Shown here piece by piece: positions 43,895 to 64,000 of a DNA stretch of 64,000 bases; the first letter of the stretch is position 1; every line of letters begins with the position of its first letter. A program made the translations under genes and the position numbers. The DNA lies in the NCBI RefSeq assembly GCF_013348785.1, contig NZ_CP054691.1:124001-188000 (forward strand). The letters are read 5' to 3'. This DNA comes from Gordonia sp. X0973 (GTDB taxonomy: Bacteria > Actinomycetota > Actinomycetes > Mycobacteriales > Mycobacteriaceae). Under the pieces are notes generated by a model, which had not been told where the DNA came from, did no database searches, and saw only the letters and a program-made list of their open reading frames with translations.

Positions 43895-44752
43895 CTAAAC
43901 CCAGTACGCCACGCGTGAGCGGTAGTTGCGCATGATGACCATCGCCACCAGGCAGCCGATCGCGGTGCACCCGAGCACGACGAGCCAGTGGTAGAACTCC
44001 ACGTGCTCGCCGAGCAGCGGGGCGCGCCCGATCTCGATGTAGTGGTACAGCGGGTTGAGTTCGACGAGCTTGGTCCGCGTGCCCATGCTCTGCTTCATCG
44101 TCGGCGTGATCATCCAGATGATCGGCGTCATGAAGAAGACCAGCTGCACGATGGTCGACATCAGCTGCGAGATGTCGCGGAAGCGGGTGGAGAGGATGCC
44201 GAACACGATGGTGATCCACACGGCGTTGAGGATGTAGAGCGCCATCGCCGGGAAGAACAGCAGCGCCTCCCAGCTGATCTTCGGCCGGAAGACGGCCAAC
44301 ACGATGAGATAGATGACGACGTTGTGCGCGAAAATGATCAGCTGCCGCCACACGACGCGATAGACGTGCACGCTCACCGGCGCCGGGAGCTGCTTGATCA
44401 AGCCCTCGTTGGTGGAGAACACGACGGTGCCCTCCAGGATCGACATCTGGATGAAGTTCCAGAAGATCAGACCGAGGGTGATGTACGGCAGGAAGGTCGA
44501 ATACGGAACGCCGATCAGCTTGCCGTACAGCAGGCCCATGGAGATGGCCATGACGCCGGTCGCGATGGTGATCCACAGCGGTCCCAGCAGCGAGCGGCGG
44601 TAGCGCTGCTTGATGTCGGTCCACCCCAGGTGCAGCCACAACTCCCAGTTGTAGAGCCCGTCGATGAGGTCGGCGAACCCGCGACGAAACGTGCGGGAGT
44701 CCGACGACTCCGGCGGGGGCGGGATCACCCGCTCGTTGAGTGAGGCAGACAC
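43895..44752 (-). CDS. wzm: Galactan ABC exporter, permease (Wzm/RfbD, Rv3783 type)
   Basis: 285-aa ABC-2-type permease with six predicted helices; WTDIKQRYRRSLLGPLW near the N-terminus is the typical interfacial motif of polysaccharide exporters. GTG 44752 has TATCCT eight bases upstream and no ribosome site, suggesting a leaderless mRNA that begins the wzm-wzt-glfT1 operon. It lies eight bases from wzt. Confidence 0.92.
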   Translation of the reverse strand: MSASLNERVIPPPPESSDSRTFRRGFADLIDGLYNWELWLHLGWTDIKQRYRRSLLGPLWITIATGVMAISMGLLYGKLIGVPYSTFLPYITLGLIFWNFIQMSILEGTVVFSTNEGLIKQLPAPVSVHVYRVVWRQLIIFAHNVVIYLIVLAVFRPKISWEALLFFPAMALYILNAVWITIVFGILSTRFRDISQLMSTIVQLVFFMTPIIWMITPTMKQSMGTRTKLVELNPLYHYIEIGRAPLLGEHVEFYHWLVVLGCTAIGCLVAMVIMRNYRSRVAYWV

Positions 44753-49989: not shown

Positions 49990-50304
49990 TCAGGCCGCGA
50001 GTTTCAGCCCGACCACGCCGCCCACGATGGCGATCAGGCAGACGATGCGCATGAGGTTGGCGGCCTCCGCTCCAGAAGCCATCGCGTACATAACCGTCAC
50101 CGCTGCGCCGATGCCGACCCATACCGCGTAGGCCGTCCCGGTCGGGATGTCGCGCATGGCGTACGCGAGTCCGGCCATGCTGACGAGCAGCGCGACGCCG
50201 AACACGATCGACGGGGTGGCCTTCGACAACCCGTCCGACCGGCCGAGTGCTGTCGCCCAGACGGCCTCCATCAGACCCGAGACGATCAGCATGATCCAGG
50301 ACAT
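49990..50304 (-). CDS. gdx: SMR-family guanidinium exporter Gdx (SugE type)
   Basis: 104 aa with four hydrophobic helices. The first helix carries the essential glutamate, GLMEAVWATALGRSDG, followed by KATPSI; this W-A-x-x-L/G-x-S-x-G pattern is that of the Gdx (guanidinium) subtype rather than EmrE multidrug pumps. Gdx is a dual-topology homodimer that exchanges guanidinium for protons. The gene is preceded by a guanidine-III riboswitch, which independently supports the substrate. Confidence 0.92.
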   Translation of the reverse strand: MSWIMLIVSGLMEAVWATALGRSDGLSKATPSIVFGVALLVSMAGLAYAMRDIPTGTAYAVWVGIGAAVTVMYAMASGAEAANLMRIVCLIAIVGGVVGLKLAA

Positions 50305-50322
50305 GTGGACTCCTCATCCACC
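50305..50322 (-). promoter_or_regulatory. Ribosome-site hairpin of gdx
   Basis: On the - strand GTGGA-TGAGGAG-TCCAC directly precedes ATG 50304. The Shine-Dalgarno GAGGAG lies in the loop and stem. The left arm overlaps the 3' end of the riboswitch aptamer, so ligand binding would free the ribosome site. Confidence 0.65.
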
Positions 50323-50358
50323 GTCTTGTCGCGCTCCGGGTACGGCGGGCTCGTCCGG
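50318..50358 (-). ncRNA. Guanidine-III (ykkC-III) riboswitch aptamer
   Basis: The - strand reads CCGGACGAG, GCCGTACCCGG, GACAAGACGG in order and spacing as in the ykkC-III consensus, which folds into a compact pseudoknot of about 41 nt. CCGG at the 5' end pairs with CCGG in the middle, and CCGCCGT pairs with ACGGTGG across the pseudoknot. The class senses guanidine and is mostly found ahead of Gdx/SugE genes in actinobacteria, exactly as here. Confidence 0.85.
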
Positions 50359-50564
50359 AAGCCCGTGAGCCGGGCTCCATTTCGACGGTACCGTCGCGTC
50401 CCTCGTCTGTCCGGCATAGCCGTGGTGATCTCGCGCCGACAATCGACGCTGCGTGAGCCGAATAACCTTCCGGGAGGAGGCTCCAACCGTCGACTGACTT
50501 CGGACAAATCGCCTTTTTGGTAAAGTCGCGGCAATTCGCTGAGCCCAAGTCTGGGGAGATCTTG

Positions 50565-53224: not shown

Positions 53225-53764
53225 ATGACGCTTAGAAGGCTGCGCAGGCGGTCACGACGTGGTGTGACGGCGATCGTCGTTACTGTCAGTGCGCTGGCCG
53301 CATCCCTCGGCGGCTGTGTGACGAACGCTGAAGATGTCCCGGCTCTTGATATGTCGCGAGGCGAAGTGTGGCGCACGATCAACGAGAATCTGCATGTCGT
53401 GGACCATGATTGGGTGGTGACACCGTGGCCGGACTCCCTCGTGCACCGCTACGGTTGCGCGACCAACCCCAAGAGCATGATGCCGATGGGTCCGCCGTGG
53501 AAGTACGAGGAATTGCAGTGGAAGCGCGATCCCTCGCCGGAATATCTCACCCGGATCGGGGCGGGACTCGACGACTTGGCGCGCTACGGGTTCACCGTCG
53601 CCCCGCCGCCGCGACCGGATGATCCGCGGGACTTGACCGCGAGGGATACGCAAAGCTTCTCCGTGATCGTCACCTACGGGACGGAGGGCAGCGCGACATC
53701 GCGGGTTGATATCCGCTCGTTGTCGCCGTGTGTTCGACACCCCGGCGAGGTCGACGACTGGTGA
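53225..53764 (+). CDS. Lipoprotein, tandem copy 2; candidate immunity protein
   Basis: 179 aa. A distinct signal peptide (RRLRRRSRRGVTAIVVTVSALAASL) ends in SLGGC. The mature region is near-identical to copy 1 in three blocks (EVWRTINENLHVVD, RYGFTVAPPPRPDDPRDLTA, SLSPCVRHPGEVDDW) and differs mainly in patches around ATNP-xx-M and WKYE-xxxW-xx-DPS. The signal peptides are unrelated in detail, but the mature parts are clear duplicates. Its stop overlaps the GTG of the kinase gene (GTGA). Confidence 0.78.
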   Translation: MTLRRLRRRSRRGVTAIVVTVSALAASLGGCVTNAEDVPALDMSRGEVWRTINENLHVVDHDWVVTPWPDSLVHRYGCATNPKSMMPMGPPWKYEELQWKRDPSPEYLTRIGAGLDDLARYGFTVAPPPRPDDPRDLTARDTQSFSVIVTYGTEGSATSRVDIRSLSPCVRHPGEVDDW

Positions 53765-54669
53765 TCCCCGAGGGTCTGCGGGCACAACGCCGACTCGGCC
53801 CCGACTGGGCGCGCTGGCTCGACGGGCTGCCCAAGCGGTGCGACGATCTGCTCGCCGACTGGGACCTCGTCATGGCTGGCGATCCCATGCACGGCTTCGC
53901 GTCGATCGTCATCCCGGTCCGGTCCGACGGGCTGGACGCGGTACTCAAGATCGGCTTCGACTCTGCTCCCGACACCGCCCAAGAACATCTCGCGCTGCAG
54001 GAGTGGGCGGGCGACGGCGCGGTCCGCATGTACCGCGCCGACCCGGGCCGGCGGGCGATGCTGCTCGAGCGCCTGAGCACCGTCGACCTCACCGGCGAGT
54101 GGGATCTGGCGGCGTGCGAGGTCGTCGCCGGCTTCTACCCGCGCCTGCATCGCCGCGCGGGTCCGCGGTTCCGCCCGCTGAGCGGCTTCCTGCGAACCTG
54201 GCTCGACGAGATGGCCGCCGACGCCGACGACCTGCCCGTCCCGCCGCGCCTGCTCGACCGTGCAGTGGCGCGCGGCCGCGAGTTCGTGGCCGACCCCGAC
54301 TGCGACGGCCGGATCATCCACGGCGACCTGCACTACGAAAACGTGTTGGCCGCGCAGCGCGAACCCTGGCTCGTCATCGACCCGCAGCCGATGTCGGGCG
54401 ACCCGCACTACGAGATCGCGCCGCTGCTCTGGAACCGCTGGGAGGAGATGGACGGCTACCTGCGCGAATCGATCCGCCGTCGCTTCGCCACCGCCGTCGA
54501 AGCGGCCGGATTCGACGAGGATCGCGCCCGCGACTGGGTGATCGTGCGGATGGTCGTCAACGCACACTGGAGCCTGCAGGACGCCAAGCGGATGAACCGC
54601 CCGCTCGACGCCGGCGAGCGCGACTGGATCACCAAGTGCATCAGCGTCGCCAAGGCGGTCCAGCGCTAG
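53761..54669 (+). CDS. APH(6)/hydroxyurea-type antibiotic phosphotransferase
   Basis: 302 aa from GTG 53761. Kinase-like fold of the APH_6_hur family: HGDLHYENV catalytic loop, IDPQPMSGDPHYEIAPLLWNRW metal site, LKIGF lysine and HLALQEW near the N-lobe. Members phosphorylate streptomycin (APH(6)) or are uncharacterised actinobacterial paralogs such as Rv3817. It is translationally coupled to the second lipoprotein, which may be fortuitous. Substrate cannot be told from sequence. Confidence 0.85.
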   Translation: MIPEGLRAQRRLGPDWARWLDGLPKRCDDLLADWDLVMAGDPMHGFASIVIPVRSDGLDAVLKIGFDSAPDTAQEHLALQEWAGDGAVRMYRADPGRRAMLLERLSTVDLTGEWDLAACEVVAGFYPRLHRRAGPRFRPLSGFLRTWLDEMAADADDLPVPPRLLDRAVARGREFVADPDCDGRIIHGDLHYENVLAAQREPWLVIDPQPMSGDPHYEIAPLLWNRWEEMDGYLRESIRRRFATAVEAAGFDEDRARDWVIVRMVVNAHWSLQDAKRMNRPLDAGERDWITKCISVAKAVQR

Positions 54670-54691: not shown

Positions 54692-55999
54692 TCAGGCGTC
54701 CGCGACGGCAGCCTGGGTGAGCACCGCGTCGAACGCGGCGCGGAACTTCTCGCCGTAATCCGGCAGCGCCTGCCCGTCGTACACGATGCCGAAGCTGGTC
54801 CGTGTTCCGAGGATCAGGATCGTCACCGAGAAGGAGTATCCGACCAACGGGGAGAGCGCCGTCAGGTCGTTGATCGGCGCTCCGAGCACGGTGCGCACCC
54901 GGGTGAAGCCGGGATTGACGCCGATGTGGATGTCGGGGGACATCTTCTTCATCGAGGCACCGGAGAGCACGCGGAAGATCGGCCACGGGGCGCGCGGCGC
55001 GTCGTCGGCGGCAGCGAGATACAGCTCGGGGCGGTCGCGTTCGATCCGCTTGAGTTGGTCCTGGATCCCGGGTAGCTGCTCCTCGACGGAAGCACGGTCG
55101 CCGGCGAGGTTGAGCAAGGAGACCGAGACGGCGTTGCCGGTGTGCCGGAACTCCTTGTCCAGGGTGACCGGGAGGGTGACGCGGATCGACGACGAAGAGA
55201 CCGCCCCGCCGTCGACCACCGGCGGTGCCGAGCTGATCGTCGTGCCGATGGCGGCGAGAAGGTATTCGTGGACCGATGCGCCGGAGCGTTTGGCCGCGCG
55301 GCGCAGGTCGCGGGTCGAGACGCTGTGCCAGCCCGCCTCGCGAGCACCCGAGCCGGAGAGCTTGGGCCAGTGGCGCCCTTCCTGGCCGGTCTCCCAAGAC
55401 TCCTCGAACGCCGCCTTCGCGGTCGCCAGCTCGTCGCGGTCGATCCCGCTGATGTGAAAGCGCGGACTCGTCGCGAAGCGGTCGAACTCGTCGAGCGAGT
55501 CCCCCTCCTCGTCGGCGAGCAAGGCCGAGAACGCGGCACCGGCGATGCCGTCGGAAAGGCTGTGGTGGACCCGCAGCAGGAGGAATTGCCGTCCGCCGAG
55601 TGTCGCGGGACTCAGAAGTGTGATGTGCCAGAACGGTCGGCCGCGTTCGAGATGTGCTCCCATCAACTCGCCGACCTGGCGGTGCAGGTCGGCGTCGTCG
55701 GCATAGCTCGCCGACGCGACCTGTGTGAGAACGTCGACCTCGTCGACCTCGATCACGCGCGGGCGCCGCCAGCGACCGCCGACGATCCCGGTGCGGAACA
55801 GTCGATAGCGCTTGGCCCGCGCCGCGACCCGCTCGCGCACCGACTCGACGTCAATCGACGTCTGGCCGCCGAGTTCCAGGAGCATGGCCCAGTGCATCGG
55901 CGCGCGCGGGGTGTCCAAGTGCAGGTAGGTGCAATCCTGGGGACCCAGCTCGATGGCCGCGTGGACGGGCGCGTCGGTCTCGACGGGGGAGGCGCTCAT
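54692..55999 (-). CDS. WS/DGAT-like O-acyltransferase
   Basis: 435 aa. The N-terminal half has the WS/DGAT opening block QDCTYLHLDTPRAPMHW and the catalytic RVHHSLSDG (HHxxxDG). The C-terminal half has PVTLDKEFRHTGNAVSVSLLNL and VNPGFTRVRTVLGAPIND, as in wax-ester synthase/diacylglycerol acyltransferases, a branch of the condensation-domain superfamily. Its ATG is 4 bases after the ACP gene stop, so both are one operon starting at the iron-box region. It may use the acyl-ACP as donor to esterify a siderophore or lipid alcohol; that is inference. Confidence 0.85.
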   Translation of the reverse strand: MSASPVETDAPVHAAIELGPQDCTYLHLDTPRAPMHWAMLLELGGQTSIDVESVRERVAARAKRYRLFRTGIVGGRWRRPRVIEVDEVDVLTQVASASYADDADLHRQVGELMGAHLERGRPFWHITLLSPATLGGRQFLLLRVHHSLSDGIAGAAFSALLADEEGDSLDEFDRFATSPRFHISGIDRDELATAKAAFEESWETGQEGRHWPKLSGSGAREAGWHSVSTRDLRRAAKRSGASVHEYLLAAIGTTISSAPPVVDGGAVSSSSIRVTLPVTLDKEFRHTGNAVSVSLLNLAGDRASVEEQLPGIQDQLKRIERDRPELYLAAADDAPRAPWPIFRVLSGASMKKMSPDIHIGVNPGFTRVRTVLGAPINDLTALSPLVGYSFSVTILILGTRTSFGIVYDGQALPDYGEKFRAAFDAVLTQAAVADA

Positions 56000-56003
56000 C
56001 GGG

Positions 56004-56249
56004 TCACACCGTCGCCATGCGCGAACGGACCAACTGCTCGAGGTCGTCGACCGACTTGGCCTCCAACATCTCGCGCTCGGTGAGCTTCACACCCAGCCGC
56101 TCCTCGATCGCGACGACCCCGATCGCCAGGGCGACCGAATCCAGACCCAGGTCTTCGACGAGGCGCGAGTCGCCGGAAACGTCGTCCAAGGAGAGGTCGA
56201 GATCCTCGACGAGGATCTCCTTCAGCGTGGTTTCGACATGGTCGGACAT
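56004..56249 (-). CDS. Acyl carrier protein (MbtL-like)
   Basis: 81 aa. ATG 56249 follows AGGAGG; the longer frame from 56285 is unlikely. The phosphopantetheine serine is in DLGLDSVAL. Next to it, divergently, is a fatty-acyl-AMP ligase of the MbtM type, and in mycobacteria MbtL and MbtM load fatty acids for transfer to the lysine nitrogen of mycobactin. The same use is likely here. Confidence 0.88.
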   Translation of the reverse strand: MSDHVETTLKEILVEDLDLSLDDVSGDSRLVEDLGLDSVALAIGVVAIEERLGVKLTEREMLEAKSVDDLEQLVRSRMATV

Positions 56250-56350
56250 GGGTCCTCCTGGGGGCTCGGGAAATGGCGCTATCACGGTCCGCGCAGAAGG
56301 CCGACCGTGGCGAGAGTCACCGCAACCGTAGTAGACGTTCAGGCAAGGTG

Positions 56351-56369
56351 CAAGGTATACCTAACCTAA
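56351..56369. promoter_or_regulatory. Iron box (IdeR/DmdR-like) in the divergent siderophore promoter
   Basis: On the - strand TTAGGTTAGGTATACCTTG matches the IdeR consensus TTAGGTTAGGCTAACCTAA at 14 of 19 positions, with one perfect half. It lies between the leftward ACP gene and the rightward fatty-acyl-AMP ligase gene, so iron-bound IdeR could repress both operons. Confidence 0.75.
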
Positions 56370-56454
56370 ATCAATCCAGGATAGCCTTCGTTACGGCAAT
56401 CCGGTGGATAACTATCAAAAAGCATCGCGCGTTTCTTACTTGGAGGCCAACCGC

Positions 56455-58107
56455 ATGAGTACCTCGGTCCATACGTGGCTCACCAGCCCGGCGTCGGAGA
56501 TCACCGGCCTGCACAGCGGCGACGATCCCTCCGATCTGCGGTTCCGCACCTGGGCGCAGGTCCGCGCGGCCGCCGCGGAAGTGGCTGCCGGTCTGGCCGC
56601 CGCCGGTGTCGGTCCGGGGGATTCCGTCGCGATCCTGGCCGGCGACCCGGGGGATGTGGCCGACCTGGTCCAGGCCATCTGGATGCGCGGGGCGAGCTTC
56701 ACCATGCTGCACCAACCGACCCCGCGCACCGAGCTGCCGACGTGGCTGGAGGAGACCAAAGAGGTCATCGCGATGCTCGGCGCCCGCGCGGTCGTCGTGG
56801 GGGAGCCCTTCGCCGAACCCCTCGCCGGACTCGATCTGGGCACCACGGTGCTGCCGATCACGGGCCTCGCCGGCCACGACCCGGTGCAGCCGGTCCCCCT
56901 CGACGACGACGACCTGGCCATCCTGCAGCTCACCTCCGGCAGCACCGGGACGCCCAAGGCCGTCGCCATCACCTTCGGCAACGTGCAGGCCAACCAGGAG
57001 GCCATGCTCGCCGGCGTCCAACCCGCCGCCACCGACGTTGCCGTCAGTTGGCTGCCGCTCTACCACGACATGGGCATGATCGGGCTGATGGTGATGCCGA
57101 TGCTCGCCGACGCCGTCGCGGTCGTCACCACGCCGCTGGCCTTCCTGCGCAAGCCGCAGTCGTGGGCCGAACTCATCACGCGCTTCGGCGGCACTTGCAC
57201 CGCCGCCCCGAACTTCGCCTACGCGGTACTCGCCAAACGTCTGCGCCGCGCCCCCGAGGGCACCTACGACCTCTCCTCGCTGCGCGTGGCCATCAACGGC
57301 GCCGAGCCCATCGACGAGGCCTCGGCCGAACTCTTCCTCGCCGAGGGCGCCCGGTTCGGCCTCCGCCCCGAGGCGATGATGCCGTGCTACGGGATGGCGG
57401 AAACGACCCTGGCCGTCTCCTTCGACGACAAGGAGCGCCGCTTCACCGTCGACACCATCGACTCGGGTGACGCCGAATCCACCGCGACCGCCCGCCGCGT
57501 CGACCCCTCGGACATCGAGACGCGCAGCCGCACCCACGTCCGTCTCGGACGCCCGGTGGTGGGGATCGAACTCGTCGTCGTCGACGACGAGGGCGCACGC
57601 CTGCCCGCGGACCGGATCGGCACCCTGCTCGTGCGCGGTCCCGCGGTGACCCGCCGCTACTTGAAGCCGGGCGGATTCGTCGACGCCGTGGATGCCGACG
57701 GCTGGCTCGACACCGGCGACCTCGGCTACGTCACCGAATCGGGCGAGATCGTCGTGACCGGCCGGAAGAAGGACGTGATCATCGTGTCCGGCCGCAACCT
57801 CTCGCCGACGGTGATCGAGCGGGCGGCCACCTCCGTCGAGGGCATCCGCGCGGGCAACGCCGCCGCGGTCTCGTACCGGCGCCTGGACGGCCGCGAGGGC
57901 ATCGCTGTCGTCGCCGAGTCGGAATTCGCCGACGACGACGAGCAGGCCCGGCGCATTCACGACGAGGTAGCGCGCGCGGTCTTCGAGGCGGTCGGGGTCT
58001 CCGTCTCGGCCGTGACCCTGATCGGGCGCGGTGAACTGCCGAAGACCCCGTCCGGGAAAATCCGCCGCCACAGCGCGGCCGAGTTGGTGGGGGTTACTCA
58101 AGAATGA
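56455..58107 (+). CDS. Fatty-acyl-AMP ligase (MbtM/FadD33-like)
   Basis: 550 aa. GGAGG (56442-56446) is eight bases before ATG 56455; an upstream GTG at 56404 is less likely. Adenylation motifs: LTSGSTGTPKA, WLPLYHDMGMIG, CYGMAETTLA, GRKKDVIIVSGRNLSP and PKTPSGKIRR. The YHDMGM block is typical of ligases that make acyl-AMP and pass it to an ACP. With the divergent ACP it supplies the fatty acyl group of the siderophore, as MbtM does for mycobactin. Its stop overlaps the next start (ATGA). Confidence 0.92.
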   Translation: MSTSVHTWLTSPASEITGLHSGDDPSDLRFRTWAQVRAAAAEVAAGLAAAGVGPGDSVAILAGDPGDVADLVQAIWMRGASFTMLHQPTPRTELPTWLEETKEVIAMLGARAVVVGEPFAEPLAGLDLGTTVLPITGLAGHDPVQPVPLDDDDLAILQLTSGSTGTPKAVAITFGNVQANQEAMLAGVQPAATDVAVSWLPLYHDMGMIGLMVMPMLADAVAVVTTPLAFLRKPQSWAELITRFGGTCTAAPNFAYAVLAKRLRRAPEGTYDLSSLRVAINGAEPIDEASAELFLAEGARFGLRPEAMMPCYGMAETTLAVSFDDKERRFTVDTIDSGDAESTATARRVDPSDIETRSRTHVRLGRPVVGIELVVVDDEGARLPADRIGTLLVRGPAVTRRYLKPGGFVDAVDADGWLDTGDLGYVTESGEIVVTGRKKDVIIVSGRNLSPTVIERAATSVEGIRAGNAAAVSYRRLDGREGIAVVAESEFADDDEQARRIHDEVARAVFEAVGVSVSAVTLIGRGELPKTPSGKIRRHSAAELVGVTQE

Positions 58108-59780
58108 CGACCGACACGACGATCGACGACCTGACCGCGGACCTGCGCGACGGTTTCGCTCCGCATCCCTCGGCGGCGGCGCAGCGCTATCGCCAGGCCG
58201 GCGTCTTCGCCAACCGGGCCCTGTGGCAGTTCGTCGAACAGGCGGCGGCTGCTGCCCCGACGGCGCCCGCGGTCACCGATGCCTCCGTCGACGGCCCGCG
58301 CACGCTGACCTACGCCGAACTCGACGCCGCCGTGCGCTCCCGCGCCGCCGGTCTCATCGCCGCCGGTCTGCGGCCCGGGCAGCGCGCGGTGTTGCAGCTG
58401 AACAACTCCGCGCAGTTCGCGATCACCCTGCTCGGTCTGCTGCGCGCGGGTCTGGTGCCGGTGATGGCGTTGCCGGCGCATCGCATCGCCGAGATCGCCC
58501 ACCTGGCCGCTGCGGCCGGTGCGGTCGCCTATCTCACCGAGGACGGTCGCCGCGGCTTCGACTACCGCGAGCTCGCCACGGAACTGCGACGACGCGTGCC
58601 CGGCGTCGCACATGTCTTCATCGACGGCGACCCGGGGGAGCACGACAAGCTCCCGGATGCCGATCCGCAAGATGCCGCTTCCATCGAGTCGACCCTGCCT
58701 GCTCCCGCCGACCCGGAACTCCCCGCTCTGCTGTTGGTCTCCGGCGGCACCACCGGGCTGCCGAAGCTGATCGCCCGAACCCACAACGACTACATGTACA
58801 ACGCGCGGCAGTCGGCCGCGGTCACCGCGCTCACGCGCAACGACACCTATCTCGCCGCGCTGCCCGCGGCGCACAACTTCGCGCTGTGCTGCCCGGGACT
58901 GCTCGGGGTGTGGTCGGTCGGCGGGCACGTGGTCCTCACCGACAACCCGAGCCCGGACGCGGCCTTCGATCTGATCCAGGCGCACCGGGTCACCGTCACC
59001 GCGCTCGTTCCCGCACTCGCGCAGGTGTGGTGCGCGGCCACCGAGTGGGAGCCGGCCGACGTCTCGTCGCTGCGGCTGCTGCAGGTCGGCGGTGCCAAGC
59101 TCGCCCAGGCCGATGCCGCGGCGCTCGACGCCGCGCTCGGCCCGATCACCCAGCAGGTCTTCGGGATGGCCGAGGGCCTCATCTGTTACACCCGGCTCGT
59201 CGACGACCGCGATCTCGTCCACCGGGTGCAGGGGATGCCGATGTCGGAGTTCGACGAGGTGCGCGTCGTCGACGAGAACGGCACTGACGTCCCCGACGGC
59301 ACCGACGGCGAGCTGTTGGTGCGCGGCCCGTACACGATCCGCGGGTATTACCGCGCGGACGGGAACGCCGCGCGGTCGTTCACCCCTGACGGCTTCTACC
59401 GCTCCGGCGACCGTGTGCGGCGCCTGCCGTCGGGACACCTCGCGGTCACCGGCCGGATCAAGGACACCATCGTGCGCGCCGGTGAGAACGTGGCCGCCGA
59501 CGACGTCGAGGAGAACCTCGCCGCCCACCCGTCGATCCGGCAGGCCGCGGTCATCGGGCTTCCCGACGACAGTCTCGGCGAGCGGATCTGTGCGCTGGTC
59601 GTCGCGTCGCACGAGCACCCGCCGGGGCGGCCGCTGGAGCTGGCCGAGGTGCGGGGTTTCCTCTCGACCCGCGGGATGGCCCCGTTCAAACTCCCCGACG
59701 AGGTGCGGCTGGTGCCGTCGTTGCCGGCCACCGCCGTCGGCAAGGTCGACAAGCAAGCCCTGCGCGCCCAGTACGCCTGA
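58104..59780 (+). CDS. Aryl acid (salicylate) adenylating enzyme, MbtA/DhbE family
   Basis: 558 aa. It activates an aryl acid as acyl-AMP and loads it on the ArCP at the start of the next protein. Motifs: [54 protein letters not shown]. In the substrate pocket [12 protein letters not shown]257-N258 match DhbE H234-N235. C263 takes the place of DhbE S240; a cysteine there is characteristic of salicylate-specific enzymes (MbtA, YbtE, PchD), whereas serine marks 2,3-dihydroxybenzoate. So salicylate is predicted. No salicylate synthase gene is within the window. Confidence 0.92.
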
Positions 59781-59809
59781 TCCCAATTCTTCTAAGCGAG
59801 GTAGTTCCC

Positions 59810-62800
59810 ATGTCGGTTGTCAGTTCGGACACCGCGACGCAGATCGACGTGCGCGCCGAAGTCGCCGCCGTTCTCGGCGTCGAGGCCGATTCGCTGAACC
59901 GCGACGCCGACCTCGTCATGCACGGCCTCGATTCGCTGCGCGTGATGCGATTGGCGGGGCAGTGGCGCAAGCGTGGCTTCGACGTCGACTTCGCGCGCCT
60001 CGCCGCCGACCCGACCCTCGACGCCTGGGCTGCTCTCCTGGGTGCCGACGCCGCCGAGTGGGCACCCCAAGTCCGCCGAGTGGGCACCCCAAGCGCGCCG
60101 AGTGGGCACCCCGGGGGCACCGAGTGGGCGTCGGGCACCTTCCCGCTCGCCCCGATGCAGCACGCGTACTGGGTCGGGCGGTCCGACAGCCACGCGCTCG
60201 GCGGGGTCGCCGCCCATCTCTACGTCGAGTTCGACGGGGATTCGCCGGTCGACGCGGCAGACCGGTTCACCGCGGCGGTCGACGCCCTCGCGCAGCGCCA
60301 CCCGATGTTGCGCACCCGGGTGAACGCCGACGGCACCCAGACCGTCGGCAACCCGCACCCGGAGTGCAGCGCGGTGTACGATCTGCGCGCCTCGACGGTG
60401 GAAGAGGTCGACGCGGAGCTGGCACGCCGGCGCGAGCAGGGGACGCACCGGATGCTGCCCGTCGAGGAGGGGGAGATGTTCCGCGCCGAGTTGACGCTGC
60501 TGCCGGGCGGGCGCAGCCGGATCCACCTCGACGTCGACATGCTGGCCGCCGATGCGATGAGTTATCGGGTCCTCGTCGACGATCTGGCTCAGCTCTACCG
60601 CGGAGGAGAGCTGAAGCCGCTGACCAGCACCTACGAGGAACTGAGCCAGACGCGCTCGGCGCAACCGGCCCGCGAGGCCGACATCGAGTGGTGGCGTGCC
60701 CGTCTGGCCGACCTTCCCGGTGCCCCCGAATTGCCCAGGACCGAGGCTGCACTCCAGGACGGACACGCCCGTACCGTGCGCCTGCACCACCGCGTCGACG
60801 CCGCCGACTGGTCGCGGCTGGAGACACACGCCCGCACCCGCGGCGTGACCCCGGCGGCCGCCGTGGCCGCGGCCTTCGCCGAGGCGGTCGGCACCCGCTC
60901 CGCCTCGTCACGCTTCCTGCTGACCGTCCCGATGTTCGACCGCGACACCGCCGACCCGAACGGCGAGCACCCCGACCTCGAGCGGGTCGTCGGCGACTTC
61001 ACGTCGTCGATCCTCGTCGCCGTCGACCTGAGCCGTCCCGCCACTTTGGCCGAGCGCGCCGCCGCGATGCGCGACGAGATGCACGACGCGATGGCGCACG
61101 GATCCTTCGGCGGACTCGACGTGCTGCGCGAACTGTCCCGCTTCCAGGGCGAGCCGGTGGTGTCGCCGGTCGTCTTCACCAGCGCACTCGGACTGGGCGA
61201 GCTGTTCTCCGACGCGGTGCGCCGCGACTTCGGCTCCCCGTCATGGATCGTCTCGCAGGGACCACAGGTGCTGTTGGACGCACAGGTGACCGAGGTCGAG
61301 GGCGGCCTGCTCCTCAACTGGGATGTGCGGACCTCGGAGTTGCCGCGCGAGGTCGCCGAGGCGATGTTCGCCTACTACGTGCGCGCACTGGACCAGCTCG
61401 TCGCGGGAGAGTGGGATGCCCCCGCGCCGGATCCCGTCGACGAGCCGACGCGCGCGGTGCGGGCTGGCGTCGAAAAGCCGCTGCCGCGGACCGATGTCTT
61501 CGACGGCACCCTGCACGGAAGATTCGTCGAACTCGCCGCGCAGCGCGCCGAGGCGCCCGCACTGATCACCGACGCGAGGACGTGGAGCCATGCCGACCTC
61601 GTCGACGAGGCGCGTCGGGTCGCCGGCGCGCTGATCGAGGCGGGGGTGTCGCGCGGCGATACCGTCATCGTGAACCTGCCCAAGGGCGGGCAGCAGGTGG
61701 TCGCGGCGATCGGCGTGCTGCTGGCCGGCGGCGCCTATGTGCCGATCAACCCGAACCAGCCGGCTGCGCGTCGCGAGCGGATCCTCACCGTCGCCGAGCC
61801 GGCCGCGATCCTGACCGATGACCCATCGCGGTGGCCCGCGGCCGCCGGCGTCCTCGACTTCGCCACCGCCGTCGCGCACACGCCGGCCGAACCGGTGGAG
61901 GTGACCGGCGACGACCTCGCCTACGTGCTCTTCACCTCCGGGTCCACCGGGTTGCCCAAGGGAGTCGAGCTGCCGCACCGGGCGGCCGTCGCGACACTGA
62001 CCGACCTCGTGGAGCGCCTCCGTCTCACACAGGGCGACCGGTCGCTCATGGTCTCCTCGCTCGAATTCGACCTCTCGGTCTTCGACGTCTTCGCCCTGCT
62101 CGCGGTCGGCGGATCGGTCGTCGTCCCCGACGACGCCGGTGCGGGCAAGGCCGACGATTGGGTGCGGCTCCTCGCCGAGCAGCAGGTCACCGTCCTCAAC
62201 TGCGTCCCCTCGATCCTGGGCATGATCCTCGACCTGGGTCCGCTGGCGCCGTCCGTGCGCGAGATCATCATGGGCGGCGACAAGGTCGATGTCTCCCTGC
62301 TCGAGCGTGTCGCGCAGCAGTCGCCGCATTGCCGCGCCGCCGGACTGGGCGGCACCACCGAGACGGCCATCCACTCCACCTACTGCGCGGCCGCCGACAT
62401 CCCGCCGGGCTTCGCATTCGTGCCCTACGGCTTCCCGCTCGCCGGTGTGGCATGCCGCGTCGTCGACGAGCAGGGTCGCGACCGGCCCGACTTCGTGCCG
62501 GGCGAACTCTGGATCGGTGGGGCCGGTGTCGCCGCCGGCTATCGCGCCGACGCGGAGCGCACCGCCGACCGCTTCGTCGAGCACGACGGGCAGCGCTGGT
62601 ATCGCACCGGCGACCTCGCGCGCTACCTCCCGGGCGGATTCCTCGACTTCCTCGGCCGCGCCGACCACCTGGTCAAGGTGCGCGGCTACCGCATCGAACT
62701 CGGCGAGGTGGAGGCCGCGCTGCTGCGACAGGCGGTCGTCACCGGTGCCGTCGCCTGGTCGGACGGTCGGGACCTGCGCGCCGCGATCACCGTCGACGAT

Positions 62801-63910
62801 GAGGCGTCCACGGCCGACGAGGTGCGCGCCGCGCTGGCCGCCGATCTGCCCGAGCACATGATCCCGCGCTCGGTGATCGCCCTGTCCGAGCTGCCGCTCA
62901 CCGGCAACGGGAAATACGACCGCAAGAAGGTCGCCGAACTCTCCGTCGCCGACGAGCCGACCGGGGCTGCGGCCCCGCGCACACCCGTCGAAGAGGTCCT
63001 CGTGGACGTCCTCGGCGGAGTCCTCGGCACCGATCGCATCGGCGTCCACGACGACTTCCTCGCCCTCGGCGGCGATTCGGTCCTCGCCACCCGCTTCGTC
63101 GCGCAGACCCGCGAATGGCTCGACGTGCCGCGGCTGTCGGTCGCCGACGTCTTCGCCAACCGCACCGTCGCCGGGCTTGCCGAGCGGATCGTCGGACTCG
63201 ACCCCGACGTCGAAACGGCCGCGGCCGAGTACCTGGAGGTCATGGCGATGTCCGACGACGAGGTCGCCGCCGAGCTGCAAAGCGCCGAGTGGGCACCCGA
63301 ATCCCCCCGAGTGGGCACCTCATTGTCACCGACTGGGCACCCGGAGCGCCCACTGCGCGAACGGCTCACCCACGTGCCGATGGATGCCGACGCCCATACG
63401 GCGATCATCCGCGAATGGCTCAACCATCCGAAGTCGAAGTACTGGGAGATGCTGACCGCCTCGCACGAGGAGGTCGCGACAATGATCCGCGACGCCCAGA
63501 CCGGCGAGCCCTACGGCATGCGCCTGGGCCTCTTCGACGGTCAGCCGCAGTTCCTCTTCGAGCTGTACGACCCGACGGTCAGCGAACTCGCCGATCCGAG
63601 CACCGGGTACGTCCACGCCGACGGCGACATCGGGATGCACCTGCTGGTCGCGCCGACCGACGAGCCGATCGCCGGCTTCACCGCCGAGGTCATGCTCCAC
63701 ATCATTTCGACGGCGTTCTTCGCCGCCGGTGCCCAGCGCGTCGTCGTCGAGCCCGACGTCCGCAACAGCCACGTGCAACGACTCAACGCCGGGGTCGGGT
63801 TCACCGTGGCCGGTGACTACCCCGTCGGCAAGAAGACCGCGCGCCTGAGCTACTGCACCCGTGACGACTTCACGAGGCTCACCGACAACGGACGGCGGAT
63901 CGCGCAGTGA
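59810..63910 (+). CDS. Siderophore NRPS: ArCP-Cy-A-PCP fused to an IucB/MbtK-like N-acyltransferase
   Basis: 1366 aa. An ArCP (S42 in HGLDSLRV) is followed by a repeat-derived linker (82-109). A cyclization domain follows, with D243, D248 and S251 in DMLAADAMS. The adenylation domain has SGSTGLPKG near 708; hand-aligned pocket residues D754, L755, F758, then N, I, G, L, I, H suggest a heterocyclisable Cys/Ser/Thr. The PCP has S1090 in LGGDSV. A second repeat-derived linker (1159-1179) leads to a GNAT domain with [25 protein letters not shown] and [14 protein letters not shown], typical of enzymes acylating N-hydroxylated lysine or diamines. The first half resembles MbtB; the GNAT is normally separate. 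GAGGTAG precedes ATG 59810. Confidence 0.93.
60054..60135 (+). repeat. 22-bp tandem repeat in NRPS linker 1
   Basis: CCGAGTGGGCACCCC starts at 60054, 60076 and 60098, with a partial copy at 60120; the period is exactly 22 bp. Because 22 is not divisible by three, each copy is read in a new frame, giving EWAP, RVGTP, SGHP, then EWA again. It encodes the ArCP-Cy linker. Confidence 0.9.
63285..63345 (+). repeat. 22-bp tandem repeat in NRPS linker 2
   Basis: CCGAGTGGGCACC at 63285 and 63307 and CCGACTGGGCACCC at 63329, again 22 bp apart. Translated as EWAP, RVGT, TGHP in succession. It encodes the PCP-acyltransferase linker. Confidence 0.9.
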
Positions 63911-64000
63911 ACGAGATGTGGACCGTCTACCGCGGGCGCATGACCGCGAAGATCCTGGCCGAGCTGTGCCACGAGCAGGTCATCACGCCCACCCGCACCG
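63907..64000 (+). CDS. Start of a probable IucA/IucC-type NIS synthetase (truncated by window)
   Basis: Only 31 codons are present, beginning GTG 63907, which overlaps the NRPS stop (GTGA). The visible [18 protein letters not shown] resembles the N-terminal helix of IucA/IucC synthetases (pattern LxAKxLxELxxEQxxxP), which join a carboxylic acid such as citrate to an amine or hydroxyl. The GNAT domain just upstream is the usual partner of such enzymes. The evidence is short, so the call is provisional. Confidence 0.5.

Follow-up and report, generated by a model that had tools for sequence, protein, structure and literature searches.

A probable nocardichelin-type siderophore operon with an NRPS-fused GNAT domain in Gordonia sp. 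X0973

Gene content and homology indicate that Gordonia sp. X0973 very probably carries a nocardichelin-type (ncd-type) siderophore cluster, which begins near the end of the window (the whole stretch of DNA that was analysed, 64,000 nucleotides) and continues beyond it. Nocardichelin logic joins mycobactin-style and desferrioxamine-style chemistry in one fatty iron-scavenging molecule. An earlier note on the window had proposed a hybrid NRPS/NIS cluster for a lipid siderophore around an iron box, a reading which holds with the box as a likely one. The two logics that it saw combined are those of nocardichelin, and in Nocardia carnea NcdE likewise belongs to a chain in which NRPS and GNAT are fused. 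Nocardichelin biosynthesis was reportedly published by Fisk et al. in 2025; the Gordonia cluster is thus a further example of an already known kind and its NRPS/NIS combination is not new.

Ten genes run in the same direction from FAAL to MbtN, with 4-base overlaps at seven of the nine junctions by gene coordinates, and the operon continues 11 kb beyond the window end. Past the NRPS the order is NIS synthetase, penicillin-amidase-family protein, stand-alone condensation domain, decarboxylase, N-hydroxylase, salicylate synthase and MbtN, the six genes after the NIS synthetase all lying outside the window. The ACP and WS/DGAT-like genes lie upstream of FAAL and point away from the operon. The features within the window are as follows.

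54692..55999, minus strand: WS/DGAT-family acyltransferase-like protein, 435 aa, HHxxxDG intact; candidate fatty N-acyltransferase
56004..56249, minus strand: acyl carrier protein for the fatty chain, PF00550 on ORF 56004-56285, LGLDS motif
56351..56369, no strand: likely iron box of DtxR/IdeR type, lying where the ACP and FAAL genes diverge, by pattern match
56455..58107, plus strand: fatty acyl-AMP ligase (FAAL), 550 aa, NF005850
58104..59780, plus strand: putative salicyl-AMP ligase (substrate by inference), 558 aa, TIGR02275
59810..63910, plus strand: NRPS, ArCP-Cy-A-PCP with fused C-terminal GNAT, one chain of 1366 aa, Pfam domains
59810..60049, plus strand: ArCP domain, GLDSL motif, presumably one of the two PP-binding stretches
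60134..61405, plus strand: cyclisation domain, PF00668, Cy-type DxxxxDxxS motif present
61532..62914, plus strand: adenylation domain, AMP-binding, pocket signature approximately DLFNIGLIHK
62996..63190, plus strand: PCP domain, PP-binding
63380..63907, plus strand: GNAT domain (Acetyltransf_8), residues 1191-1366
63907..64000, plus strand: start of NIS synthetase, NcdF/DesD type, IucA/IucC family; the gene ends at genome position C1:189706

The iron-box pattern TTAGGTTAGGNNNNCCT, built on what we take to be the consensus, occurs once against 0.00 expected from 100 dinucleotide shuffles, and the identical 19-mer is present in the Gordonia araii locus (L066). A looser scan, accepting at least 13 of 19 positions, found one match in the window against a mean of 1.4 in its mononucleotide shuffles and so gave no separation, and the best match in the Gordonia UBA5067 locus (L067) is 13/19 with a different sequence. 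The strict pattern and G. araii speak for the box proposed earlier, the loose scan and UBA5067 against it; the box is a likely one.

The salicylate-type ligase, ArCP-Cy-A-PCP, fatty-acyl-AMP ligase and ACP that had been read from the window were all recovered by Pfam, NCBIfam and motifs. On the 1366-aa chain Pfam places PP-binding (two stretches), Condensation, AMP-binding and Acetyltransf_8, the last at residues 1193-1335 with 107 bits (cut-off 27), in agreement with the GNAT domain that had been noticed there. This domain is the sole Acetyltransf_8 match above the family cut-off in the genome and its top PDB match is NcdE (230 bits). Of the 16 nocardichelin-type loci that could be assessed, 11 have the fusion; the five Gordonia loci whose genes are split encode the GNAT in a frame of its own. 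The aryl-AMP ligase matches TIGR02275 (2,3-dihydroxybenzoyl-AMP ligase) best, with 567 bits and below the cut-off of 723.55, while the salicylate synthase scores above the cut-off of TIGR03494; ORF L003:8297-9712 was set aside, as it covers the salicylate synthase gene in the wrong frame.

The closest comparison is the ncd locus of N. carnea. Over the 572 residues compared, PDB NcdF (9nom) and the protein of N. carnea NBRC 14403 differ in the initial residue alone, where a start codon is read as M, and PDB NcdE (9nij, 9nik, 9nil, 9nim) matches the last 198 residues of the N. carnea NRPS-GNAT chain with 445 bits. The two clusters have the same enzyme set, NRPS-GNAT fusion, NRPS-to-N-hydroxylase order and A-domain pocket, with NIS proteins 58% and GNAT domains 61% identical. 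They differ in arrangement: in Gordonia, salicylate synthase and MbtN stand at the operon end with ACP and WS/DGAT-like genes divergent upstream of FAAL, whereas in N. carnea the genes for ACP, MbtN, the WS/DGAT-like protein and FAAL come after that for the N-hydroxylase, and those for aryl ligase and salicylate synthase come before that for the NRPS. The pocket signature, approximate in being positioned by motif anchors, is identical to its N. carnea counterpart, a resemblance from which we infer serine as the probable A-domain substrate.

Gene content and homology are observed directly; the chemistry that follows is proposed from enzyme families. Salicylate made by the salicylate synthase would be loaded on the ArCP by the aryl-AMP ligase, and Cy-A-PCP would add serine, the presumed substrate, and close the salicyl-oxazoline. 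Decarboxylase and N-hydroxylase would supply N-hydroxycadaverine for two separate N-acylations, one with succinate and one with a fatty acid that FAAL activates, the ACP carries and the MbtN-like enzyme desaturates. The NIS synthetase would couple succinyl-N-hydroxycadaverine with fatty-acyl-N-hydroxycadaverine, and the stand-alone C domain would transfer the salicyl-oxazoline from the PCP to the free amine. That C domain has distant solved relatives, at most 41 bits among the matches listed, and VibH is absent among the 17 solved matches listed. The predicted product comprises a salicyl-oxazoline, two N-hydroxycadaverines, succinate and a 2-enoyl fatty acid, and would chelate through the phenol-oxazoline and two hydroxamates (hexadentate), with a fatty tail in addition. 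With the building blocks connected in the manner that we take to be correct, the formulae of nocardichelins A and B equal, by arithmetic, Ser-oxazoline, two N-hydroxycadaverines, succinate and C16:1 or C14:1 less four water. Both formulae are those of the literature; the sources on nocardichelin and DesG are PMC12161575, PMC6467163, PMC10920908, PMC13036778 and PMC10264631. A literature search for NcdF returned no siderophore title among the matches listed.

A pathway of the same kind could make another congener: threonine could replace serine, the diamine or the acyl set could differ, or capped desferrioxamines could be made alongside; this is unlikely, yet it is the alternative that fares best. 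In its favour, the NIS tree separates the window lineage from that of N. carnea and from other Gordonia lineages, the NIS proteins of the five split-gene loci forming another clade. Within the same genus, G. rubripertincta CWB2 has a related locus in which DFO genes accompany a salicylate synthase and an NRPS of mycobactin-like type, with desG but not desH and with a distinct GNAT gene in contrast to the fusion seen here; it makes acetyl-capped DFO B and A1 (PMC12161575). Against another congener stand the pocket signature shared with N. carnea and the NIS, hydroxylase and decarboxylase proteins, all nearest the desferrioxamine/ncd side in PDB.

The amidase bears on whether the product keeps its tail. 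As a PvdQ-like maturation enzyme it would strip the fatty chain and leave a non-lipidic final product, a reading rejected as improbable. The PvdQ model does match, weakly (35.7 bits, cut-off 950), but by eye the sequence has no evident signal peptide, and among solved structures its nearest relatives, 35sz apart, are glutaryl-7-ACA acylases and D-succinylase. Moreover, Streptomyces DesG is proposed to de-succinylate N-hydroxy-N-succinylcadaverine.

An aryl-azoline joined to a citrate-type core, as in aerobactin logic, was likewise considered and rejected, and is very improbable. Its attraction is the presence of an IucA/IucC-family enzyme together with a GNAT, and the earlier note, which had suggested such a core, was correct that the gene at 63907 is a NIS synthetase (IucA/IucC family, E 5e-75, 599 aa, in 4-base overlap with the NRPS stop). 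However, against PDB this protein scores best with NcdF (749 bits) and then DesD (546), IucC reaching only 213 and IucA 37. The single NIS gene is thus of DesD/NcdF type by sequence, not the citrate type nor an aerobactin-type IucA/IucC, so a citrate core is not expected and a succinyl-hydroxycadaverine core is. A diamine-type hydroxylase with an adjoining decarboxylase also argues against citrate.

Sequence to the right of 64,000, which the earlier note had named as the place to look for an IucA/IucC gene and an N-hydroxylase, holds both. The N-hydroxylase scores 319 bits against 6xbb, which we take to be DesB, 301 against the desferrioxamine enzyme 5o8p, 287 against a putrescine hydroxylase and 157 against MbtG. 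No second Lys/Orn-type N-hydroxylase in the genome matches strongly: this one reaches 339 bits, and the remaining six matches stay under 30. The top PDB match of the decarboxylase is the desferrioxamine enzyme 5o5c (253 bits), though diaminobutyrate decarboxylases also score well (226 bits), and the RhbB model gives 335 bits (cut-off 900). Cadaverine supply and a diamine N-hydroxylase therefore appear to be present, with desferrioxamine-type enzymes closest. Decarboxylase, N-hydroxylase, GNAT, DesD-type NIS synthetase and amidase are common to the Gordonia cluster and desferrioxamine desABCD (with desG). To our knowledge, the DFO pathway has no NRPS, salicylate or FAAL/ACP arm, whereas the NRPS arm here lies inside the operon.

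Mycobactin mbt loci comprise salicylate activation, ArCP-Cy-A-PCP, FAAL, ACP and MbtN, and the Gordonia cluster resembles them in each, with an MbtN-like protein; the difference is that a NIS synthetase appears to stand in for further NRPS/PKS. A standard mycobactin pathway whose other mbt genes lie elsewhere in the genome, the alternative allowed for earlier, has its salicylate synthase, FAAL, ACP and MbtN-like proteins, but fails on the hydroxylase, no MbtG-type lysine N6-hydroxylase being found in the genome and the one strong hydroxylase being closer to desferrioxamine-type enzymes, and was rejected as the least probable reading of all. Other large NRPS frames (2678, 6297 and 6742 aa) lie at 2.82-2.87 Mb, and Condensation-domain mapping gave 22 matches.

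Within the nocardichelin-type reading, the fatty-acyl arm consists of FAAL (NF005850, 675.6 bits, cut-off 572; MbtM model 296.7, cut-off 621), the presumably MbtL-like ACP at 56004-56249 (NCBIfam NF004533, 85.2 bits, cut-off 72) and the MbtN-like protein (MbtN model, 600 bits, below the cut-off of 700). Nocardichelin needs two kinds of N-hydroxycadaverine N-acylation, succinyl and fatty. Since one strong Acetyltransf_8 GNAT is present in 15 of the 17 cluster genomes examined, the WS/DGAT-like protein may attach the tail. This protein matches PF03007 (59 bits) and TIGR02946 (116 bits, below the cut-off of 310), and its HHxxxDG is invariant across 14 aligned sequences; its AlphaFold model is poor (mean pLDDT 59.4, 14 sequences). 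We tentatively suggest, while leaning somewhat against it, that it moves the ACP-bound fatty enoyl group onto the hydroxylamine nitrogen while the NRPS-fused GNAT makes the succinyl monomer.

These results place a nocardichelin-type pathway in a Gordonia lineage, shared with G. araii and Gordonia sp. UBA5067, that is apart from the Gordonia lineage with a separate GNAT, and provide one long operon for it. As nocardichelins are reported to inhibit human tumour cell lines, further producers are of some use. The cluster also raises a testable question, namely which enzyme attaches the fatty tail; if the WS/DGAT-like protein does so, an enzyme of the wax-ester-synthase family would be an N-acyltransferase acting on a hydroxylamine nitrogen.

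Family-profile matches and translation placed the ACP (window 56004-56249, - strand), FAAL, aryl-AMP ligase, ArCP-Cy-A-PCP chain and C-terminal GNAT domain where an earlier note on this DNA had described them, and the gene at 63907, which that note had tentatively read as the start of a NIS synthetase, does encode one. The genome is a single contig of 3.75 Mb in which the window corresponds to bases 124001-188000, and the operon extends beyond it, on the + strand throughout, with the following genes (contig coordinates).

187907-189706, +, NIS synthetase, 599 aa
189703-192054, +, penicillin-amidase-family protein (PF01804, 492.6 bits)
192051-193583, +, stand-alone condensation (C) domain
193580-195130, +, PLP decarboxylase
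195123-196460, +, N-hydroxylase
196457-197854, +, salicylate synthase (TIGR03494, 465.9 bits, cut-off 325.15)
197851-199056, +, MbtN-like dehydrogenase (600.5 bits, below the cut-off of 700)

Between FAAL and MbtN there are nine junctions. With start codons picked by eye, the coordinates give 4-base overlaps at seven of them (FAAL/ligase, NRPS/NIS, NIS/amidase, amidase/C, C/decarboxylase, hydroxylase/MbtI and MbtI/MbtN), the remaining two being an 8-base overlap and a 29-base gap. Beyond MbtN, the opposite strand carries a thioesterase-family gene and a ribonucleotide-reductase-small-chain-family gene. The sole transporter matches among the ORFs scanned near the operon are an ABC-2 membrane protein (window 43895-44752) and an SMR protein (49990-50304, - strand, 104 aa). 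The top model for the latter is SugE, at 98.7 bits and below the cut-off of 126, and a guanidine-III riboswitch (50315-50380, - strand; 58.4 bits, gathering 36) is located directly upstream of its gene.

Judged from sequence, this is a real nocardichelin-type cluster with the full set of expected genes. In the cluster of Nocardia carnea NBRC 14403, the NIS protein is identical to the solved NcdF bar the first of 572 residues compared, and the solved GNAT protein NcdE corresponds to the 198 residues at the C-terminal end of the NRPS-GNAT chain (445 bits). As both proteins map to this cluster, an acyltransferase fused to the NRPS belongs to the ncd layout, which the window cluster shares. Among solved proteins, the NIS synthetase of the window cluster scores 749 bits against NcdF, 524-546 against DesD, 509 against DfoC and 484 against the alcaligin enzyme, compared with 213, 178 and 37 bits against IucC, AsbB and IucA, respectively. 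The N-hydroxylase matches 6xbb, which we take to be DesB (319 bits), the desferrioxamine enzyme 5o8p, presumably DfoA (301), the putrescine hydroxylase 7us3 (287) and MbtG (157), while the decarboxylase matches the desferrioxamine enzyme 5o5c, presumably DfoJ (253), and a diaminobutyrate enzyme (226). For the amidase, 35sz ranks first, followed by glutaryl-7-ACA acylases and D-succinylase, and residues 1191-1365 of the fused chain match NcdE at 230 bits.

Distribution was followed in 201 genomes drawn from the family, using the stand-alone C domain as query. Matches of at least 225 bits were obtained in 21, Gordonia sp. X0973 included; weaker matches in 105 more are of general condensation-domain strength. 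Neighbourhood DNA was examined for 16 of the 20 other strong-match genomes (G200, G096, G082 and G109 being left out), and each of the 16 contains exactly one NIS gene, a gene absent from all eight same-genus genomes drawn that were without a strong C match. When contigs were searched with the fused NRPS and the best 80 of 352 relatives kept, a NIS match was detected at 16, with a similar, cut piece at the locus L077, and none in the fetched, partly short DNA of the other 63, which resemble mycobactin/nocobactin loci or salicylate NRPS loci of other kinds. The GNAT lies in the NRPS frame at 11 of these 16 NIS-bearing loci and in a separate frame at five, all Gordonia. On the NIS tree, the window sequence groups (100/100) with Gordonia araii (the named species with the closest cluster), Gordonia sp. 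UBA5067 and one genome from a different genus, outside the split-gene Gordonia clade, and fused and split GNAT states require at least two changes (28 rows, two given no label).

A second architecture occurs at L045, L052, L054, L056 and L057, where the GNAT occupies a separate short frame and a more distant ArCP-Cy-A-PCP (40-51%) adjoins the N-hydroxylase; it may yield a different product. The GNAT is also separate at L041, with no Cy match in the fetched DNA. In the Nocardia group, G048 (L043, 17279-19429, - strand) has the GNAT fused to ArCP-Cy without A or PCP in a 722-aa frame, likewise present in G144 (L049), and a second, complete ArCP-Cy-A-PCP (44-50% identity) lies alongside, possibly a variant pathway.

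The A-domain pocket, located via motif anchors, reads DLFNIGLIHK in five of seven aligned fused chains, including those of N. carnea and the window, and DLFNLGLIHK in two. The published nocardichelin formulae, in the part of the source available, are C40H65N5O8 and C38H61N5O8. By arithmetic, both are reproduced by a salicyl-oxazoline built on Ser, succinate, a fatty acid (C16:1 or C14:1) and two N-hydroxycadaverine units minus four waters, linked as the compounds reportedly are; because of this fit, the A-domain substrate is probably serine. The free-standing C domain would release the chain onto an amine, by analogy with VibH. VibH is not among its 17 PDB sequence matches listed, and no close relative was found among solved structures (top match 41 bits). 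The HHxxxD motif of this C domain is present in all 16 relatives.

Which enzyme attaches the fatty tail was addressed by counting GNATs of the Acetyltransf_8 family. The Gordonia sp. X0973 genome has a single domain above the cut-off of 27 bits, at 112 bits, with two further matches at 24-25 bits, and the cluster of each of the 16 relatives likewise contains one, at 99-129 bits. G031 and G094 have a second strong match (74-75 bits), and weak above-cut-off matches are present in G174 (34 bits), G182 (29, 29) and G074 (28), all others being below cut-off. Thus, 15 of 17 cluster genomes have one strong candidate of this family for two kinds of N-acylation, so either the single GNAT performs both or another protein, for example the WS/DGAT-like protein, performs one. 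The latter is present in 15 of 16 relatives; it was not seen in G117, where the contig stops soon after the N-hydroxylase. At most 105 bases separate its gene from the ACP in six relatives; the distance is approximately an MbtN gene length in five by scripted count and in G031 by the match table, and 8 kb in two; in G012 the gene is present and the ACP was not seen. HHxxxDG is invariant in 14 of 14 aligned sequences, the L045 match being a fragment without this stretch. The argument for a second acyltransferase is weakened because only Acetyltransf_8 GNATs were counted and because the WS/DGAT model score is below its cut-off. An APH_6/hydroxyurea-kinase-family protein (window 53728-54669, + strand) adjoins the WS/DGAT-like gene. 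For Streptomyces, the available part of the source proposes that DesG removes the succinyl group from succinyl-N-hydroxycadaverine; by analogy, the amidase here, whose GSNAW motif occurs in 16 of 16 relatives, could turn this compound back into free N-hydroxycadaverine, available for fatty capping.

Other loci were observed in the genome. A second siderophore-type locus (contig ~1,074,200-1,083,650; L017:10211-19632) encodes an isochorismatase, an SDR, an aryl-AMP ligase with a fused carrier domain and a C-A-PCP-TE chain of 1687 aa that also bears an enterochelin-esterase-like region (Enterochelin_N + Esterase), a synthetase-esterase fusion that looks unusual. Genes for NaeI and NgoMIV family restriction enzymes adjoin at 205381-207477 (L003:17381-19477), and a large NRPS locus at 2,822,000-2,866,000, with open frames of 6742, 6297 and 2678 aa, accounts for 16 of the 22 condensation matches in the genome.

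A study on nocardichelin biosynthesis, named in a review's reference list, is reportedly that of Fisk et al. 2025. The window cluster is a further example of a kind already published in that year. In the part of PMC12161575 available, nocardichelins are the only NIS/NRPS hybrid family identified to date, and a G. rubripertincta CWB2 cluster is judged consistent with nocardichelin production.
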